The position numbers and the translations under genes are program-made. Under the pieces are notes generated by a model. That model saw nothing but the letters and a program-made list of their open reading frames with translations, did no database searches and was not told the DNA's origin. A stretch of 43,230 bases of DNA from Caldisericia bacterium. GTDB taxonomy: Bacteria; Caldisericota; Caldisericia; JAAYUI01. Shown here piece after piece: positions 13,534 to 36,303 of this stretch (its first letter is position 1; each line of letters starts with the position of its first letter). The stretch is taken from NCBI GenBank assembly GCA_017999835.1, contig JAGNLA010000014.1, positions 1-43,230 on the forward strand, written 5' to 3'.

Positions 13534-15135
13534 GTGTTCCCATTACCTTCTCTCGAGCTCAAGACAGTTGAAGAAGATGCCTTCCTGGGCAGATATACAA
13601 TTGAACCTTTGCACCCAGGCTATGGCATTATGATCGGCAACAGCCTTCGTAGGGTTCTGCTCTCATCAATCATGGGAGCAGCACCGGTTGCTGTAAGGAT
13701 TGAGGGTGTACCTCATGAATTCAGTGTTATCGAAGGTGTCGTCGAAGACGTTGTTCAGATTATACTGAACCTGAAAAAACTTGTTGTTGGTATGGATAGC
13801 GATGAAGTCAGAACGCTTACACTTGACGTTTCAGGCGAAAGAGTAGTGACTGCCGCTGATATCATTCCGGACGCAGGCGTAACAATCGTCAACCCTGAAC
13901 TTCATATTGCTGAGCTCTCAAGCCCAAACTCTCAGCTTCGCATGGATATCCTTGTTGCAAAAAACAGAGGCTATGTTCCTACAGAAAAAAACAAGAGAGG
14001 CGACTATCCAATCGGAACGATCTGGATGGACGCAATGTTTACCCCTGTTAAGAATGTGAAGTTCACTGTTGAACAGACACTTATTGAACAGTACCTTGAT
14101 TTCGAGCGCCTCAACATCGACATTCTCTGCAACGGAGCCATTCAACCAAAAGACTCACTCAACCAGGCTTTGCAGATTCTTTCTGAGTACTTCTCGGCAA
14201 TTGCCCAGCCTGACATCCTTCGAGATTCTGAGGGTGAACTTGAGTCATCAATTGATGACAAGCTCGATATGAGTCTGGACATCGTTGTTCCGAACATCTC
14301 GCCAAAGACTCACCATCTGCTCATCTATGCCGGCATCAAAACGCTTCGCGACCTGCTGATGAAAGAACAAAACGACATCACAGCCATCAAAGGCATCACC
14401 ACAAAGATGCTCAAGGAGCTTGTGAAAGCCGTTGAATCGACTTCTGATTATCAGGTCATCTCCCAGTATGCCTTCCCGTTTATTACGGTTTCCGAAGAGG
14501 AAGAGGCGGAAGCGGAAGTTGAAGAAGTTGACATAGAGGCAGCGGTTGAGGATGAAGAGCCGGAAGTTGTCGAACAACCGCCAGCACCAAAAGCCGAAGC
14601 CAAACCAGTCAAGGAAGATCACAGGGAATTTGTTGTCACCAAGAAAGAACAGAGAGAGGAGCCTCCTCAGGTTTCACTTAAGGTTTCCGACCTCAACTTC
14701 ACACTTGATGACCTTGCTCTGTCAAAGTCCACAAGACAGTTCCTTACCTCAGTCAAAATAAACACCCTCGACCAACTGCTCGGTAAAACCAGAAAAGACC
14801 TCATGCAGCTCTCAAGCTCAAAGGACAAGGTTGTAAACGAGATTGAAAAGAGACTCGACCAGCTCGACCTCAAGCTCGTACCAGACCAGGTTGACGCAGC
14901 ATCCGAAGAAGAACGTACAAACAAACTTCTTTCAATGGACATTGAAGAATTCAAGGAAGAAGTCGTTATTCCGAAGACTAACCTCAAACATATGGAACAG
15001 GCAAATATTGCCACTCTGGGTGATCTTGTCGAGCTTGGAAAATCAGGCATGAAGGGTCAGCTCAAGATGACCGCAAAAACAATAGAAGAAATTGAAAAGA
15101 GACTCGAGAAGATGGGTCTCCAGATCAAGGAGTAA
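13534..15135 (+). CDS. rpoA: RNA polymerase alpha subunit with three CTD-like modules
   Basis: The alpha dimer scaffolds RNA polymerase assembly and its C-terminal domain binds upstream promoter DNA and activators. Residues 1-235 are a normal alpha N-terminal domain (YGIMIGNSLRRVLLSS, then the VEQTLIEQYLDFERL region). The protein continues to 533 residues, about 200 longer than usual. I see three helix-hairpin-helix CTD-like modules at about 245-302, 385-448 and 466-532. An acidic linker (about 320-347) and a proline/lysine stretch separate the first two. Each module keeps the I-x-T/K-L-x-x-L pattern, but the canonical DNA-contacting Arg265 and Asn268 (E. coli numbering) are not clearly conserved. 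The start is GTG at 13534 behind AAGGAGGG. Confidence 0.96.
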   Translation: MFPLPSLELKTVEEDAFLGRYTIEPLHPGYGIMIGNSLRRVLLSSIMGAAPVAVRIEGVPHEFSVIEGVVEDVVQIILNLKKLVVGMDSDEVRTLTLDVSGERVVTAADIIPDAGVTIVNPELHIAELSSPNSQLRMDILVAKNRGYVPTEKNKRGDYPIGTIWMDAMFTPVKNVKFTVEQTLIEQYLDFERLNIDILCNGAIQPKDSLNQALQILSEYFSAIAQPDILRDSEGELESSIDDKLDMSLDIVVPNISPKTHHLLIYAGIKTLRDLLMKEQNDITAIKGITTKMLKELVKAVESTSDYQVISQYAFPFITVSEEEEAEAEVEEVDIEAAVEDEEPEVVEQPPAPKAEAKPVKEDHREFVVTKKEQREEPPQVSLKVSDLNFTLDDLALSKSTRQFLTSVKINTLDQLLGKTRKDLMQLSSSKDKVVNEIEKRLDQLDLKLVPDQVDAASEEERTNKLLSMDIEEFKEEVVIPKTNLKHMEQANIATLGDLVELGKSGMKGQLKMTAKTIEEIEKRLEKMGLQIKE

Positions 15136-31651: not shown

Positions 31652-31893
31652 AGTCCAATTGCCCCTAAATGGCGGAATCTGGGATTAATAGCCTTTTGTT
31701 GTCGTGCCGACGAAAATAGTCATTCTTGTGGGCTTGCACACAACAAAGTTTGTTTGGTAATGGCAGTTCTTACAAAAGACAATAACAAAATATGAGAGTT
31801 TGTTGTGAATTTGCCAACAATTCATAACTGACAGCTTGCCGAGTCTTTTTTAAAAAAACTTGTACAGGTTTTGTTTCAACCAAGTTTGCTTTA
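31652..31893. other. Non-coding stretch before the lipoate operon
   Basis: I see no gene here. Interlaced short inverted repeats occur at 31800-31824: TTGTTG pairs with CAACAA, and TGAATT with AATTCA. They could be a regulator site, but the arms are only six bases. No tRNA-like fold or riboswitch was recognised. Confidence 0.4.
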
Positions 31894-31922
31894 TTGACAA
31901 GCTTCAGGGCAGAACCGATAAT
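31894..31922 (+). promoter_or_regulatory. Strong leaderless promoter of the lipoate operon
   Basis: TTGACA (31894-31899, perfect) and GATAAT (31917-31922) are separated by 17 bases. Only 6 bases (TCAACT) lie between the -10 box and the ATG at 31929, so the expected transcription start falls on the start codon. There is no ribosome binding site. This is the best promoter seen in the window. Confidence 0.75.
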
Positions 31923-31928
31923 TCAACT

Positions 31929-32963
31929 ATGGAAAAAAATCAGGAAAGTCCGGATTATATCAGATTAAGCCAGGCTGCGGCCATGACCTTGGATTTACTC
32001 GACGGCAGCTTTTATAGAGATGCAAAACTTCACTGTATCAACATTCTCTTGACATATACCCAGGGATGCAGTGCAAACTGTGCCTATTGTGGACTTTCAA
32101 AGGTTCGTCCTGGCGAATACGAAGAAAAATCATTCATCAGGGTTTCATGGCCAATTCACTCAACCGATGACGTTGCCCAGAGAATTGCAAAAAGACCTGA
32201 CGTGGTAAAGCGTGTGTGCATTTCGATGATCACTCAGCGCAAAGCGGTTGATGATGCTGTAGTTGTAGCCAACAGAATCAGGGCAAATAGCAACGTTCCA
32301 ATCTCAAGCCTGGTTTCACCTACAGTCATGGTAGAATCCGATTATGTTGCCCTAAAGCAAGCTGGCGTAGACAAGGTTGGCATTGCAATCGATTGTGCTA
32401 CCGAGGAACTGTTTGACCTTCACAGGGGCATCCACGCCAATGGCCCGCACAAGTGGGAAAAATACTGGTCTTCTTTTGAGTCCGCACTGAAAGTCTTTGG
32501 CAAAGGTCAGGTCGGAAGCCATTTTGTGGTTGGTTTGGGTGAAACTGAAAAGCAGATGATTGAATCCATTCAAAAAATCAGGGACATGGGCGGAGAGACG
32601 CATCTTTTCTCGTTCTTCCCTGAGGCAAACTCAAGGCTGGCAAAGCATGCCAGACCATCAATCCCACACTACAGAAGAGTCCAACTTGCCAGATATATGA
32701 TTGACAACGACATCACGAACCTTGGCAAAATGAAATTTGATGATACTGGCAGGGTCGTTGATTTTGGTGCTGATACTGTCGCCGTTGCAAAGCTCGGGAA
32801 ACCGTTCATGACCTCAGGTTGTGTCGGTGAAGATGGTCAAGTTGCCTGCAACAGGCCGTTTGCAAACGAACGACCGTCTGAAGAATTTAGAAACTTCCCT
32901 TTTATGCCAACAAGCGAAGAGATCGAAACAGCAATTAAAGAAATAAACGACTATAGCCAATGA
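31929..32963 (+). CDS. LipS-like radical SAM protein, probable lipoyl synthase component
   Basis: The 344-residue protein is a BioB-like radical SAM enzyme. The cluster-binding motif is Cys47-x3-Cys51-x2-Cys54 in TQGCSANCAYCGLS. Near the C-terminus Cys298 and Cys307 (TSGCVGEDGQVACNRPF) may hold a second iron-sulfur cluster. Two such proteins, LipS1 and LipS2, jointly insert sulfur into octanoyl groups in the alternative lipoate pathway; only one is encoded here. The downstream LipT-like and ligase genes support this role. I cannot say whether it is LipS1 or LipS2. The ATG at 31929 is set by the promoter; the frame is open upstream to 31860, but that would lie over the promoter. Confidence 0.82.
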   Translation: MEKNQESPDYIRLSQAAAMTLDLLDGSFYRDAKLHCINILLTYTQGCSANCAYCGLSKVRPGEYEEKSFIRVSWPIHSTDDVAQRIAKRPDVVKRVCISMITQRKAVDDAVVVANRIRANSNVPISSLVSPTVMVESDYVALKQAGVDKVGIAIDCATEELFDLHRGIHANGPHKWEKYWSSFESALKVFGKGQVGSHFVVGLGETEKQMIESIQKIRDMGGETHLFSFFPEANSRLAKHARPSIPHYRRVQLARYMIDNDITNLGKMKFDDTGRVVDFGADTVAVAKLGKPFMTSGCVGEDGQVACNRPFANERPSEEFRNFPFMPTSEEIETAIKEINDYSQ

Positions 32964-33922
32964 CTCAAAAATTCGATGTAGCAATAATAGGCGCTGGCCC
33001 TGCGGGTTTGACGCTTGCCCTTGAGCTTGAACGTAAGTTCAAGGTTTTGCTCATCGATAAAAAACAAGAGCCGCACAAGCTTATTGCCTGCGCAGAGTGG
33101 GTTCCTCCAAACATGCCTGTTGCTGCTATAACCGACACAGTTGCCATGGAAACTTATTACGGCGATAAAATCAAGATCAGAGATTTTGGCGGGAAAATCA
33201 TAGACCGTCAATCCTGGCAAAAAGGCATGCTGGAAAGCCTGACTGAAACGACTGTTAATCTTGGTTTGCCTGTTGAAAAAATAGATGAAAACAAAGTAAT
33301 CACTCCAAAAGGAATGTTTGAGGCTGAAATTGTGGTTGGAGCTGATGGACCTTTGTCGGTTGTCAGGAAAAGCCTTGGTTTGACGGTCGCTCCAGTAATG
33401 CCGGCAATAAACGTTAAAATGAAGCTGGTAAAAAAACTAGACCGAACTCTCATCCATTTCTCAGACAATATTGAGAAAGGCTACGGCTGGGTTTTTCCAA
33501 AAGGTGAATTTGCAAATGTTGGTGTCGGCGCAACTTCAAAAATCTCTGACGCTTTGGAATCTTATAAGGCATTTCTTGTCCAAAACCGCATTGTTTTGCC
33601 TGGTGAAACGCAAAGAACAGCAGGAATGATACCGCTTTATGGTTTCAGCCCGGTGGCCTCTGACAATTGTGTGATGATAGGCGATGCTGCCGGATTGACA
33701 GATCCGCTGACAGGTGCGGGAATTTTTCAAGCCTGGGATAGCGCGAAGATCTTTGCAGGTGTTTTGCTAGAGAATAAACTTCTGTCAGAGTATTTCAAAA
33801 AGATTAAAATAGCATATGGATCATTTCTAGCAAGAAGAATGACTAAAAGAAAAATATTGGAAGATAACTGGGGAAATCTCGAAAAGGCAGTAGAGGAATC
33901 ATGGGTTTCGTTTGGCAAATGA
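32960..33922 (+). CDS. LipT-like FAD-dependent oxidoreductase (geranylgeranyl reductase family)
   Basis: The 320-residue flavoprotein has the Rossmann FAD motif IIGAGPAGLTLA (residues 9-20), the ADGPLSVVR segment and the GDAAGLTDPLTGAGI motif that marks the geranylgeranyl reductase family. In lipoate clusters with LipS and sLpl(AB), a related flavoprotein called LipT is thought to supply electrons. The gene overlaps both neighbours by 4 bases, so it belongs to this operon. A role in lipid reduction is the main alternative, but no isoprenoid gene is nearby. Confidence 0.85.
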   Translation: MTQKFDVAIIGAGPAGLTLALELERKFKVLLIDKKQEPHKLIACAEWVPPNMPVAAITDTVAMETYYGDKIKIRDFGGKIIDRQSWQKGMLESLTETTVNLGLPVEKIDENKVITPKGMFEAEIVVGADGPLSVVRKSLGLTVAPVMPAINVKMKLVKKLDRTLIHFSDNIEKGYGWVFPKGEFANVGVGATSKISDALESYKAFLVQNRIVLPGETQRTAGMIPLYGFSPVASDNCVMIGDAAGLTDPLTGAGIFQAWDSAKIFAGVLLENKLLSEYFKKIKIAYGSFLARRMTKRKILEDNWGNLEKAVEESWVSFGK

Positions 33923-35457
33923 GCGATTTCCCGGTATTCAGGGAAATTGATACCGAAGTAAAATCAGCTGTTTGGAATATGGCTTCAGATGATATTCTCT
34001 TGAAAGAACAAGCAAAAACAAGTTTGCCAACATTGCGTTTTTTATCCTTCGAACGTTGCGCCCTCGTTGGTTATTTTCAATCCATTTCTCAAGAAATCAG
34101 AGTAGATTACTGCAAACAAAAAGATATAAAAATCAACAGAAGAATTACCGGTGGTGGCTCACTTTATTTCGATCCATCGCAAGTCGGCTGGGAGATCATT
34201 GCTCCGTTATCGCTTTTTAATGCGTCTCCTGAACAATATTACGAGATATTTGGCGCTTCTGTGGCAATTGGGCTACAAAAACTGGGCATTCAGGCAGTAT
34301 TCAAGAAACGAAACGATATAGAGATTAACGGGAAAAAAGTGTCAGGCATGGGCGGAATAACCTATGGCAACTCGTTTCTTTTCCAAGGGACGCTTCTTGT
34401 TGAGGATAGAATCGAAGAAATGCTCTACTCGTTGCGAGTGCCAATTGAAAAACTCAAACCCAAAGAGATAAACTCAGTCAGAGAGCGTGTCACCTGCGTT
34501 CAGCACGAACTCGGACGAATTCCATCAAGGGAAGAGCTGAAGGATGCAATTAGGTTTGGCTTCAACCAGGCGCTTGGAATCACGACAAAACCTGGGCAAC
34601 TAACCAAAGATGAAGAAGAAAACATCGAAAAATCGTTAGATATTTTTAGCTCACAAAAATGGATCGACAGGATAAAAATGCCTGACGACACCCAAGGGCT
34701 TTTATCCGGCGCATATAGGTCAAACATTGGCACAATCAAGATTAGCATGTTGGTTAATGCATCACAGAAAATGATCAGGTCAACGCACATCACAGGCGAC
34801 TTTTTGCTTGAATGCGACACGATCCTCAACGATTTGGAAAGGTTGCTGCGCAACATCCATTTTGATGAAAGCAAAATAATAGAAATTGTAGAAAAATTTT
34901 TTGAAAACATCCCATATATCAGCTCAAGCGAATTTGTAATGGCTTTTGCTGAGGTCCTCAAAAAATGGGACTGGGTAAAGCAGGGGTTTACGCCTTCCGA
35001 GGCAAACTCGCTATTTGCCGTTAACTTCTCACCGGGTGAAAAGATTGAACCAAGGGTGTTTTTGTTCCCATATTGCGCAAAAGATTCAAACTGCCAGTTC
35101 CGTTATCGGGATGAGTGCACGAGCTGCAGTGTTTGCGAAACCGGAGATGGTTACAAAATGGCCATCGATGCAGGTTTGATTCCGGTCACCATCACGAGCT
35201 TTGAAGACCTTGAGGAAAAATTCGTCTGGATGAAAAACCAGGGAATAAACGCATACATCGGCAGCTGCTGCGAAGCCTTTTACGTCAAGCACCAGGAGGA
35301 GTTCATCGGCTGCGGACTCAAAGGTCTGCTCATCGACGTTCAGGACTCCACCTGCTACGACCTGGACAAAGCGCACCAGGCATACGCAGGAACCTTTGAG
35401 AACAAAACCAGTCTGGATATGGGGTTGATTGGGAAAGTGCTAAATATTAAGGAATAA
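33919..35457 (+). CDS. Lipoate-protein ligase (LplA-LplB) fused to DUF116
   Basis: The 512-residue protein joins three parts. Residues 1-230 are an LplA/LipM-type ligase with RRITGGGSLYFD (74-85) and the catalytic lysine in KKVSGMGG (Lys140). Residues about 255-335 resemble the LplB accessory domain (GLLSGAYRSNIGTIKIS). Residues about 378-505 match DUF116, a cysteine-rich domain of unknown function, with cysteines at 386, 392, 400, 403, 406, 450, 451, 465 and 479. The ligase should attach octanoate or lipoate to proteins such as GcvH. The ATG at 33919 overlaps the LipT gene by 4 bases. It overlaps the convergent Nmad3 gene by 18 bases. Confidence 0.88.
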   Translation: MSDFPVFREIDTEVKSAVWNMASDDILLKEQAKTSLPTLRFLSFERCALVGYFQSISQEIRVDYCKQKDIKINRRITGGGSLYFDPSQVGWEIIAPLSLFNASPEQYYEIFGASVAIGLQKLGIQAVFKKRNDIEINGKKVSGMGGITYGNSFLFQGTLLVEDRIEEMLYSLRVPIEKLKPKEINSVRERVTCVQHELGRIPSREELKDAIRFGFNQALGITTKPGQLTKDEEENIEKSLDIFSSQKWIDRIKMPDDTQGLLSGAYRSNIGTIKISMLVNASQKMIRSTHITGDFLLECDTILNDLERLLRNIHFDESKIIEIVEKFFENIPYISSSEFVMAFAEVLKKWDWVKQGFTPSEANSLFAVNFSPGEKIEPRVFLFPYCAKDSNCQFRYRDECTSCSVCETGDGYKMAIDAGLIPVTITSFEDLEEKFVWMKNQGINAYIGSCCEAFYVKHQEEFIGCGLKGLLIDVQDSTCYDLDKAHQAYAGTFENKTSLDMGLIGKVLNIKE

Positions 35458-36303
35458 CTCATTCAACCATTTATTGGCTTCAGGATATTCAGAGCAATCA
35501 AACACAAACTCCTGACCCCTACCTACAGTTTGTAATAGAGTATAATTATCAAACAATTTCCATTTTTTGATATCTTTATGGTATGATAATGGTTTTCTAT
35601 CTTTAGGATAAAACCACTTAGGTAATTTCCATATGCTAGTACTCATTCCTTCGGCTGATAATTCTAATTTTTGATTTTGGTGTTTAAAGACACCTCCTCC
35701 ATCAATATTTGTTTCCATTGAACATAAGTTAAGTTTCTCTTTAGCAACAAAAATGGCATTGTTTGGAACAAGTTCAATTTTATCATTGTCAATTATATGA
35801 GGTTCAAGATGTGGATGATTAATAGCCCATTGAGGAATATCAAATTGATAGTTTTCGTCTATTATATAATCTATCTGCAACCATCCCCAAATGATATGTT
35901 TTGGTCTAGACTTAGAGTAGTGATATTCCCCGTTTACTAGAATTATATCTTGAAATAAGCCAAAGAAGAGAAAAATATCACCTAAAGTTACGCCTTGATT
36001 TCTAAGATGAGATAATGAAGAGGAAGATTGACCAAACATCGGTCTCCAGCCTTCTAATCTTGGCTTGTTTGAATAATACAAATCTGGATCTAAGTGTATC
36101 GGTGTATTGTGAATGATCCTGCCCTTTGATAAACAATTAACTAATGAACCAATATTAATATTATCAATAACGAGTTGATTCATCCTGTCTGATTCATTCA
36201 ACTGAGGAATTGGCAGTGAAATCATTCTGCCATTGGGAAAGATTGGGCTTGGGAAACCGCCTGAAGTATTGTCAAATCCCTTTCGACTAAGAATTATCTT
36301 CAT
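35440..36303 (-). CDS. Nmad3-family putative nucleotide modification protein
   Basis: The 287-residue product starts MKIILSRKGFDNTSGGFPSP and contains HLDPDLYY, MFGQSSSS, NQGVTLGDIFLFFGLF and YHYSKSRPKHIIWGWLQID. This is the pattern I know as Nucleotide modification associated domain 3 (Nmad3), a family found by computational analysis of DNA-base-modification gene neighbourhoods and not characterised biochemically as far as I know. The gene is visibly richer in A+T than its neighbours, uses many ATA, TTA and AAT codons, and has no modification partner nearby. Recent transfer is likely. A promoter lies 8 bases before its ATG. Confidence 0.82.
   Translation of the reverse strand: MKIILSRKGFDNTSGGFPSPIFPNGRMISLPIPQLNESDRMNQLVIDNINIGSLVNCLSKGRIIHNTPIHLDPDLYYSNKPRLEGWRPMFGQSSSSLSHLRNQGVTLGDIFLFFGLFQDIILVNGEYHYSKSRPKHIIWGWLQIDYIIDENYQFDIPQWAINHPHLEPHIIDNDKIELVPNNAIFVAKEKLNLCSMETNIDGGGVFKHQNQKLELSAEGMSTSIWKLPKWFYPKDRKPLSYHKDIKKWKLFDNYTLLQTVGRGQEFVFDCSEYPEANKWLNELFLNI

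Follow-up and report, generated by a model that had tools for sequence, protein, structure and literature searches.

The window analyzed here, the complete contig C9 (43,230 bases) of a Caldisericia bacterium assembly of 1.89 Mb in 28 contigs that is 92.75% complete, contains an operon of three overlapping genes on the forward strand (31929-35457). They encode, in this order, a radical S-adenosylmethionine (SAM) protein of the LipS2 type, a LipT-like flavoprotein, and a lipoate-protein ligase that unites the domains LplA, LplB, and DUF116 in one chain. An earlier interpretation of this DNA, made from its letters only (the sequence-only reading), had proposed three overlapping genes, and this was borne out: both junctions are ATGA overlaps, as read from the sequence, and the operon is translationally coupled. 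The features are:

31929-32963, forward strand: lipS2-type radical SAM gene (344 amino acids); CX3CX2C at residues 47/51/54 (about 32067-32090), further conserved cysteines 36, 97, 298, and 307
32960-33922, forward strand: gene for a lipT-like oxidoreductase dependent on flavin adenine dinucleotide (FAD) (320 amino acids); ATGA overlap with lipS2
33919-35457, forward strand: gene for the lipoate-protein ligase LplA-LplB-DUF116 (512 amino acids from the ATG at 33919, the start for all ligase residue numbers); ATGA overlap with lipT
33937-34668, forward strand: LplA catalytic domain; RRxTGGG and the catalytic-site lysine (GKKVSG) invariant in 56/56 homologues
34714-34965, forward strand: LplB accessory domain (Pfam match)
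34999-35442, forward strand: DUF116 domain; invariant cysteines 386, 392, 400, 403, 406, 450, 451, and 479
35116-35136, forward strand: C-x2-C-x2-C sequence motif of DUF116

The start of the lipS2-type gene was placed at the ATG at 31929, and not at the first TTG at 31860, because the first methionine is invariant among the aligned relatives. The earliest in-frame ATG of the ligase reading frame lies at 33901, and the ATG at 33919 was taken as its start.

The LipS2-type and LipT-like proteins

The first gene had been thought to encode a LipS-like radical SAM protein with a CX3CX2C motif and a C-terminal cysteine pair. This assignment holds: rather than any non-lipoyl radical SAM family, LipS2 is by far the best NCBIfam match, and it covers the full length of the protein (3.6e-65, 220 bits). 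The radical SAM motif (C47-X3-C51-X2-C54), C97, and the C-terminal pair C298/C307 are invariant among 11 relatives, and the three additional cysteines are suited to an auxiliary cluster. LipS2 of Thermococcus kodakarensis binds two clusters by C39/43/46 plus C85/276/279 (PMC9585515), and the cysteine set of the window protein is, judging from the aligned residues, of the kind that binds both. The C-terminal pairs of the two LipS2 types differ, CX8C in the window (fusion-linked) type versus CX2C in canonical LipS2 and in the T. kodakarensis protein. Because its 220 bits lie below the curated cut-off for LipS2 (NF053743, 270 bits), the protein is named LipS2-type and not an NF053743 equivalog. 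Further proteins of this type also remain below 270 bits (G064, G212, G094, G371, and G351; 200-237 bits). As the sampled fusion-linked LipS2 and some LipS1 of the class fall below the respective NCBIfam cut-offs (270 for NF053743; 230 for NF053742), automatic annotation may overlook this variant of the pathway.

The second protein matches the FAD oxidoreductases of the geranylgeranyl-reductase superfamily (6.7e-41, which is under the cut-off of that model). Its putative identity as LipT is consistent with the FAD-binding fold and with its position among lipS1/S2 genes, and an activity with reduced nicotinamide adenine dinucleotide (phosphate) is predicted.

The three-domain ligase and its DUF116 domain

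The third protein yielded Pfam matches to LplA-B_cat (139 bits) and Lip_prot_lig_C (30.9 bits). The match to DUF116 (PF01976) reached 23.1 bits, just below the cut-off of 25 bits, and 25.9 bits, above it, in a genome-level search. All 56 aligned full-length homologues match DUF116 (best E 2.9e-13), and the ligase signature (RRxTGGG, ND...K..G) is invariant in all of them. The relatives come from a scan of 84,980 species genomes, in which a four-row alignment of the DUF116 part served as the query; the best 80 of 100 relatives were kept. A scan of a named genome collection with the whole fusion as a single sequence gave no match, probably because the search patterns lay in variable stretches.

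The sequence-only reading had treated the fusion as an oddity, and this view has to be abandoned. Of the 80 loci, bacterial as well as archaeal, 75 have all three domains within a single open frame; four of the remaining loci are interrupted by a contig end, and in the fifth (L069) the frame holds the DUF116 part only. The titles of the loci name, among others, WOR-3, Mcinerneyibacteriota, Bacillota, Chloroflexi, Nitrospirae, Nitrospinota, Actinomycetes, Thermoleophilia, Desulfobacterales, Desulfovibrio, Thermoplasmatota, Thorarchaeota, Hydrothermarchaeota, and Terraquivivens. Separate whole-genome searches also recovered the fusion in G024, which is of the same class, and in G064, G084, G212, and G351. 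An assembly or frameshift artefact, for which nothing speaks except the apparent oddity of the fusion, is already refuted by this recurrence of the identical domain order in other genomes and has a negligible probability. When the LplA-LplB part was used for a tree, the 56 ligases with DUF116 all fell on one side of a branch (Shimodaira-Hasegawa-like approximate likelihood ratio test support 95). This topology agrees with one fusion event and later transfer to many lineages, and the fusion thus appears to have a single origin.

The neighbourhoods of DUF116 were surveyed for LipS and LipT in the 44 loci with at least 3.5 kilobases on each side. LipS2 is present in 38, LipS1 in 34 (both together in 33), LipT in 30, and GcvH/LbpA in 30. 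These counts are unbiased by selection, because the loci were retrieved through DUF116. The window ligase groups with WOR-3, Mcinerneyibacteriota, and other bacterial sequences (support 96-99), and most of its close relatives have lipS2, lipT, lipS1, and the ligase gene together; the window operon is without lipS1. A search for LipA in the assembly, which is 92.75% complete, found none; the top match has 31 bits compared to a cut-off of 310. This match, on contig C10, falls inside a canonical LipS2 gene and was discarded. The LipS2 match, the missing LipA, and the homologous loci with LipS1, LipS2, LipT, and GcvH/LbpA bear out the earlier choice of the sLpl(AB)/LipS/LipT pathway over LipA/LipB, the final product of which is identical. 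It is very probable that the operon belongs to the sLpl(AB)/LipS1/LipS2/LipT pathway.

Some loci have a richer gene content. At L052, L057, L097, L102, L078, L064, and L098 a second ligase gene without DUF116 is found no more than a few kilobases from the fusion, and GcvH and LipS2 frequently stand between the two; in the Thermoplasmatota cases and L078 this second ligase has no LplB match. One bacterial clade (L112-L121, L041, L130, and L132) has two LbpA-like proteins, LipS1, the fusion, and LipS2, and no LipT. Its LbpA-like acceptors have two conserved cysteines and resemble the LbpA type of sulfur oxidation. Three unrelated lineages have genes recognized by eye as OsmC-like in the vicinity of the lipoate cluster (L112, 11708-12172; L066, 7831-8271; L072, 13850-14305).

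The single-chain architecture and the nine cysteines of the DUF116 part had been described correctly, but only eight of the cysteines are conserved; the ninth is found in 1 of 56 homologues. Seven are common to the fusions (54/54) and to stand-alone DUF116 proteins (30/30), while the eighth, C450, the first of a CC pair, is present in 54/54 fusions versus 0/30 stand-alone proteins. The vicinal CC and the CxxCxxC are invariant in the fusions, the invariance of four of the eight cysteines being partly selected, since the search patterns used in locating the loci included C386 and C392 (one pattern) and C450 and C451 (the other). The suggestion that DUF116 handles sulfur, iron-sulfur (Fe-S) clusters, or a metal would be compatible with the eight invariant cysteines. 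DUF116 was found in 80 of the 367 genomes that were searched, in most cases as a stand-alone protein. A complementary distribution of the fused and stand-alone forms was considered and rejected; G064, G212, and G351 hold both. The published family (DUF116/COG1852/arCOG02078; PMC5898192) likewise has seven conserved cysteines and a flavodoxin-like fold, but its proteins often have N-terminal membrane segments, contain no ligase, and are without the eighth cysteine of the fusions. Makarova et al. (2015; PMC5898192) predicted from other contexts that DUF116 is a metal-binding, flavodoxin-like domain with a role in electron transfer.

AlphaFold2 modelled the whole fusion with a mean predicted local distance difference test score of 90.9, and the DUF116 domain alone with 88.2. 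The modelled topology of DUF116 is Rossmann/flavodoxin-like. Structural matches obtained with VIA-align are de novo Rossmann proteins and type II dehydroquinases (Z 6-8), and the N-terminal domain of HdrA, which binds an Fe-S cluster (PMC9012536), recurs with Z 5.6-6.4. As a pointer to Fe-S binding, this likeness of the model is suggestive, not more. Foldseek gave no match below E 0.02 with DUF116 alone, a fold search with the model of the whole fusion listed the ligase family only, and a profile search of DUF116 against solved structures found no relative, only sub-significant matches. Because of the Foldseek result and the middling Z values, no fold family is assigned beyond Rossmann/flavodoxin-like. 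The sub-significant profile matches include the ribosomal protein eL43/L37a (E 1.4 and weaker), a zinc-ribbon protein. Together with the CxxC-type cysteine-rich motif, which fits zinc as well, this would agree with a zinc-binding or disulfide-stabilized domain on which LipS1, LipS2, and the H protein dock around the ligase, without any redox or sulfur chemistry. The attachment to the ligase, instead of to a LipS protein, is also in keeping with a scaffold. However, stand-alone DUF116 proteins retain the seven cysteines without a ligase, their published context is redox (PMC5898192), and seven or eight cysteines exceed the needs of one zinc site. We consider a docking domain of this kind unlikely.

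Pathway genes elsewhere in the genome

The sequence-only reading had counted a single LipS protein. In fact, the genome encodes a LipS1 (C26:104927-105724, 8.7e-64) as well as a second, canonical LipS2 (C10:88905-89753), which scores 279 bits, above the curated cut-off, and groups in the tree with LipS2 of genomes of the same family. The C26 LipS1 has 215 bits compared to the NF053742 cut-off of 230, and the LipS1 hidden Markov model was seeded partly with the C26 gene itself; its placement rests on the tree rather than on the model score. Its residues C33/37/40, H166, C238, C285, and C286 are spaced like C27/31/34, H159, C230, C276, and C277 of Thermococcus LipS1, the last three of which are experimentally identified ligands (PMC9585515). 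Its sister sequences in the LipS1 tree come from G001 and G002, two genomes of the same family. A pairing of the C26 LipS1 with canonical LipS2 was dropped; the tree puts it, together with LipS1 of G001/G002, on the fusion-linked side (split support 100).

Contig C21 carries three H-protein genes adjoining gcvPA and gcvPB, which were recognized by eye. The lipoyl lysine is present in two of them. The GcvH-like protein of 133 amino acids (C21:4054-4377; locus L036, 3982-4383), encoded beside gcvH and gcvPA, has no lysine at this position and is possibly a non-lipoylated H paralogue. Closest to the H protein of 139 amino acids, with long branches, are those encoded near the fusion in Thermoplasmata and Desulfovibrio. 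The C21 H proteins are likely the lipoyl acceptors. A 2-oxoacid dehydrogenase E2 was not seen, and outside C21 biotin/lipoyl domains were matched only in short frames (175 and 140 amino acids).

Another possibility is that lipoyl synthesis runs mainly by LipS1 (C26) and canonical LipS2 (C10), and that the window operon was gained horizontally, is partly redundant, and serves one special acceptor. G001 and G002 contain a related LipS1, canonical LipS2, and an Lpl(AB) of 375 amino acids without DUF116, and in the trees the LipS2 and the ligase of the window fall among sequences of other phyla (support 99 and 96-99, respectively), whose operons include their own lipS1. However, the 375-amino-acid Lpl(AB) was not found in the genome studied here, where the ligases are the window ligase and an LplA/LipM-like protein of 267 amino acids, and the window ligase is therefore probably the working one; in addition, the guanine-plus-cytosine content of the operon (44%) differs little from the 45-46% of other genome regions. 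We consider such a partly redundant extra set rather unlikely. Our own reading is that the window operon was gained and now supplies the ligase, and that LipS1 is a resident gene.

Two known systems help to place this arrangement. The sLpl(AB)-LipS1/S2-LipT system of sulfur-oxidizing bacteria shares the LplA plus LplB ligase, the clustered LipS-type radical SAM proteins and LipT, and GcvH-like acceptors; its ligases are described as two-domain proteins and DUF116 is unmentioned (PMC6067878, PMC10332631), in contrast to the three-domain ligase of the window. Here, furthermore, lipS1 is not part of the operon, and the probable acceptors are the H proteins encoded next to gcvPA/gcvPB. T. kodakarensis also has a two-enzyme lipoyl synthase, with widely separated lipS1 and lipS2 genes on its chromosome and the LipS1 residue spacing noted above, but its ligase consists of two separate subunits, Lpl-N and Lpl-C (PMC9585515).

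Two other genes of the window deserve mention. A gene with the Nmad3 (nucleotide-modification-associated) Pfam domain (35440-36303, reverse strand, 1.7e-67) is convergent with the ligase gene and overlaps its 3' end. The alpha subunit of RNA polymerase (13534-15135, forward strand) comprises 533 amino acids instead of the usual about 315; it has two Pfam matches to the C-terminal domain and, by eye, three helix-hairpin segments like this domain, with acidic linkers between them. Genomes of the same family have frames of 554 amino acids that align with it over the full length; elsewhere in the class many genomes have about 305-316 and others 430-467 amino acids. The idea that the window is a prophage was dropped, its left part being a ribosomal-protein/secY/rpoA region.

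A possible role of DUF116 in lipoyl synthesis

Our results concern gene content, architecture, conservation, distribution, the single clade, the neighbours, the whereabouts of LipS1, LipS2, and the H proteins, and the predicted fold. The chemistry of the ligase and of LipS1/S2 has been established by others for homologues (PMC6067878, PMC9585515, PMC10332631), and the corresponding octanoyl/lipoyl ligase and sulfur-insertion activities of the window and C26 proteins are predicted. The window ligase would octanoylate a glycine-cleavage-type H protein, the LipS2-type protein would make the first sulfur insertion, with electrons probably supplied by LipT, and LipS1, encoded elsewhere in the genome, would make the second. 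An Lpl(AB) ancestor may have acquired the C-terminal DUF116 and thereby founded one widespread clade. DUF116 would be a Rossmann/flavodoxin-like module with an Fe-S cluster held by the conserved cysteines, and its tethering would keep a redox or Fe-S source beside the freshly octanoylated acceptor. It might provide LipS1/S2 with electrons, or restore the auxiliary cluster, which these enzymes may use up.

This explanation as a whole, an operon of the LipS1/S2 pathway with DUF116 as a tethered Fe-S/redox module on the ligase, is the one that we favour with moderate confidence. That DUF116 binds an Fe-S cluster, the type of cofactor included, seems marginally probable. Either specific role, electron supply or cluster renewal, is suggested tentatively. 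Cluster renewal has a parallel in NfuA, and DUF116 could be an Fe-S or sulfur donor for LipS1/LipS2 as NfuA is for LipA. Both enzymes are radical SAM sulfur inserters with auxiliary [4Fe-4S] clusters comparable to the sulfur-supplying ones of LipA (PMC9585515), and the invariant vicinal CC and CxxCxxC, with the extra cysteine specific to the lipoate fusions, would suit a donor. However, no Nfu homology was found for DUF116, systems without DUF116 exist, and the family-wide cysteine conservation is equally well explained by electron transfer. We regard a donor function as rather unlikely.

Several observations weigh against the tethered Fe-S/redox module. Its cofactor is not visible from the sequence, the conservation of four cysteines is in part a product of the search, and the HdrA match lies within the noise range for Rossmann-like folds, with dehydroquinases and designed proteins scoring higher. 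The window LipS2-type protein stays under the curated cut-off. DUF116-less, two-domain Lpl(AB) proteins of 352 amino acids are clustered with LipS1 and LipS2 in G094 and G371, and DUF116 is therefore accessory and dispensable for the chemistry. Finally, the L112-L121 loci contain DUF116 without a convincing LipT match nearby, and an electron path from LipT to DUF116 is therefore not universal.

The pathway, its enzymes, and the DUF116 family were already known. Among the papers listed from the searched literature, those naming DUF116 do not concern lipoate by their titles, and those on LipS1/LipT, the main pathway paper included, are without DUF116. The three-domain ligase is a common variant of a known pathway, and as the form of one large clade it appears to be unremarked. 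The LipS1/S2 pathway became known only recently (2018-2023), with descriptions of a two-domain ligase. If a third domain that carries eight invariant cysteines is common to one large ligase clade found in many phyla, earlier work may have missed a step of the pathway, be it the supply of electrons, the renewal of clusters, or the assembly of a complex. Speculatively, DUF116 might be a dedicated Fe-S/sulfur module of lipoyl assembly: after octanoylation of the H protein by the ligase, the tethered DUF116 would pass to LipS1/LipS2 the electrons or cluster that these use up, and ligase and lipoyl synthase would form one assembly line across numerous phyla of bacteria and archaea. A long-known domain without an assigned function also acquires a concrete, assayable partner reaction, and the fusion makes sulfur renewal by LipS1/S2 testable with one purified protein.

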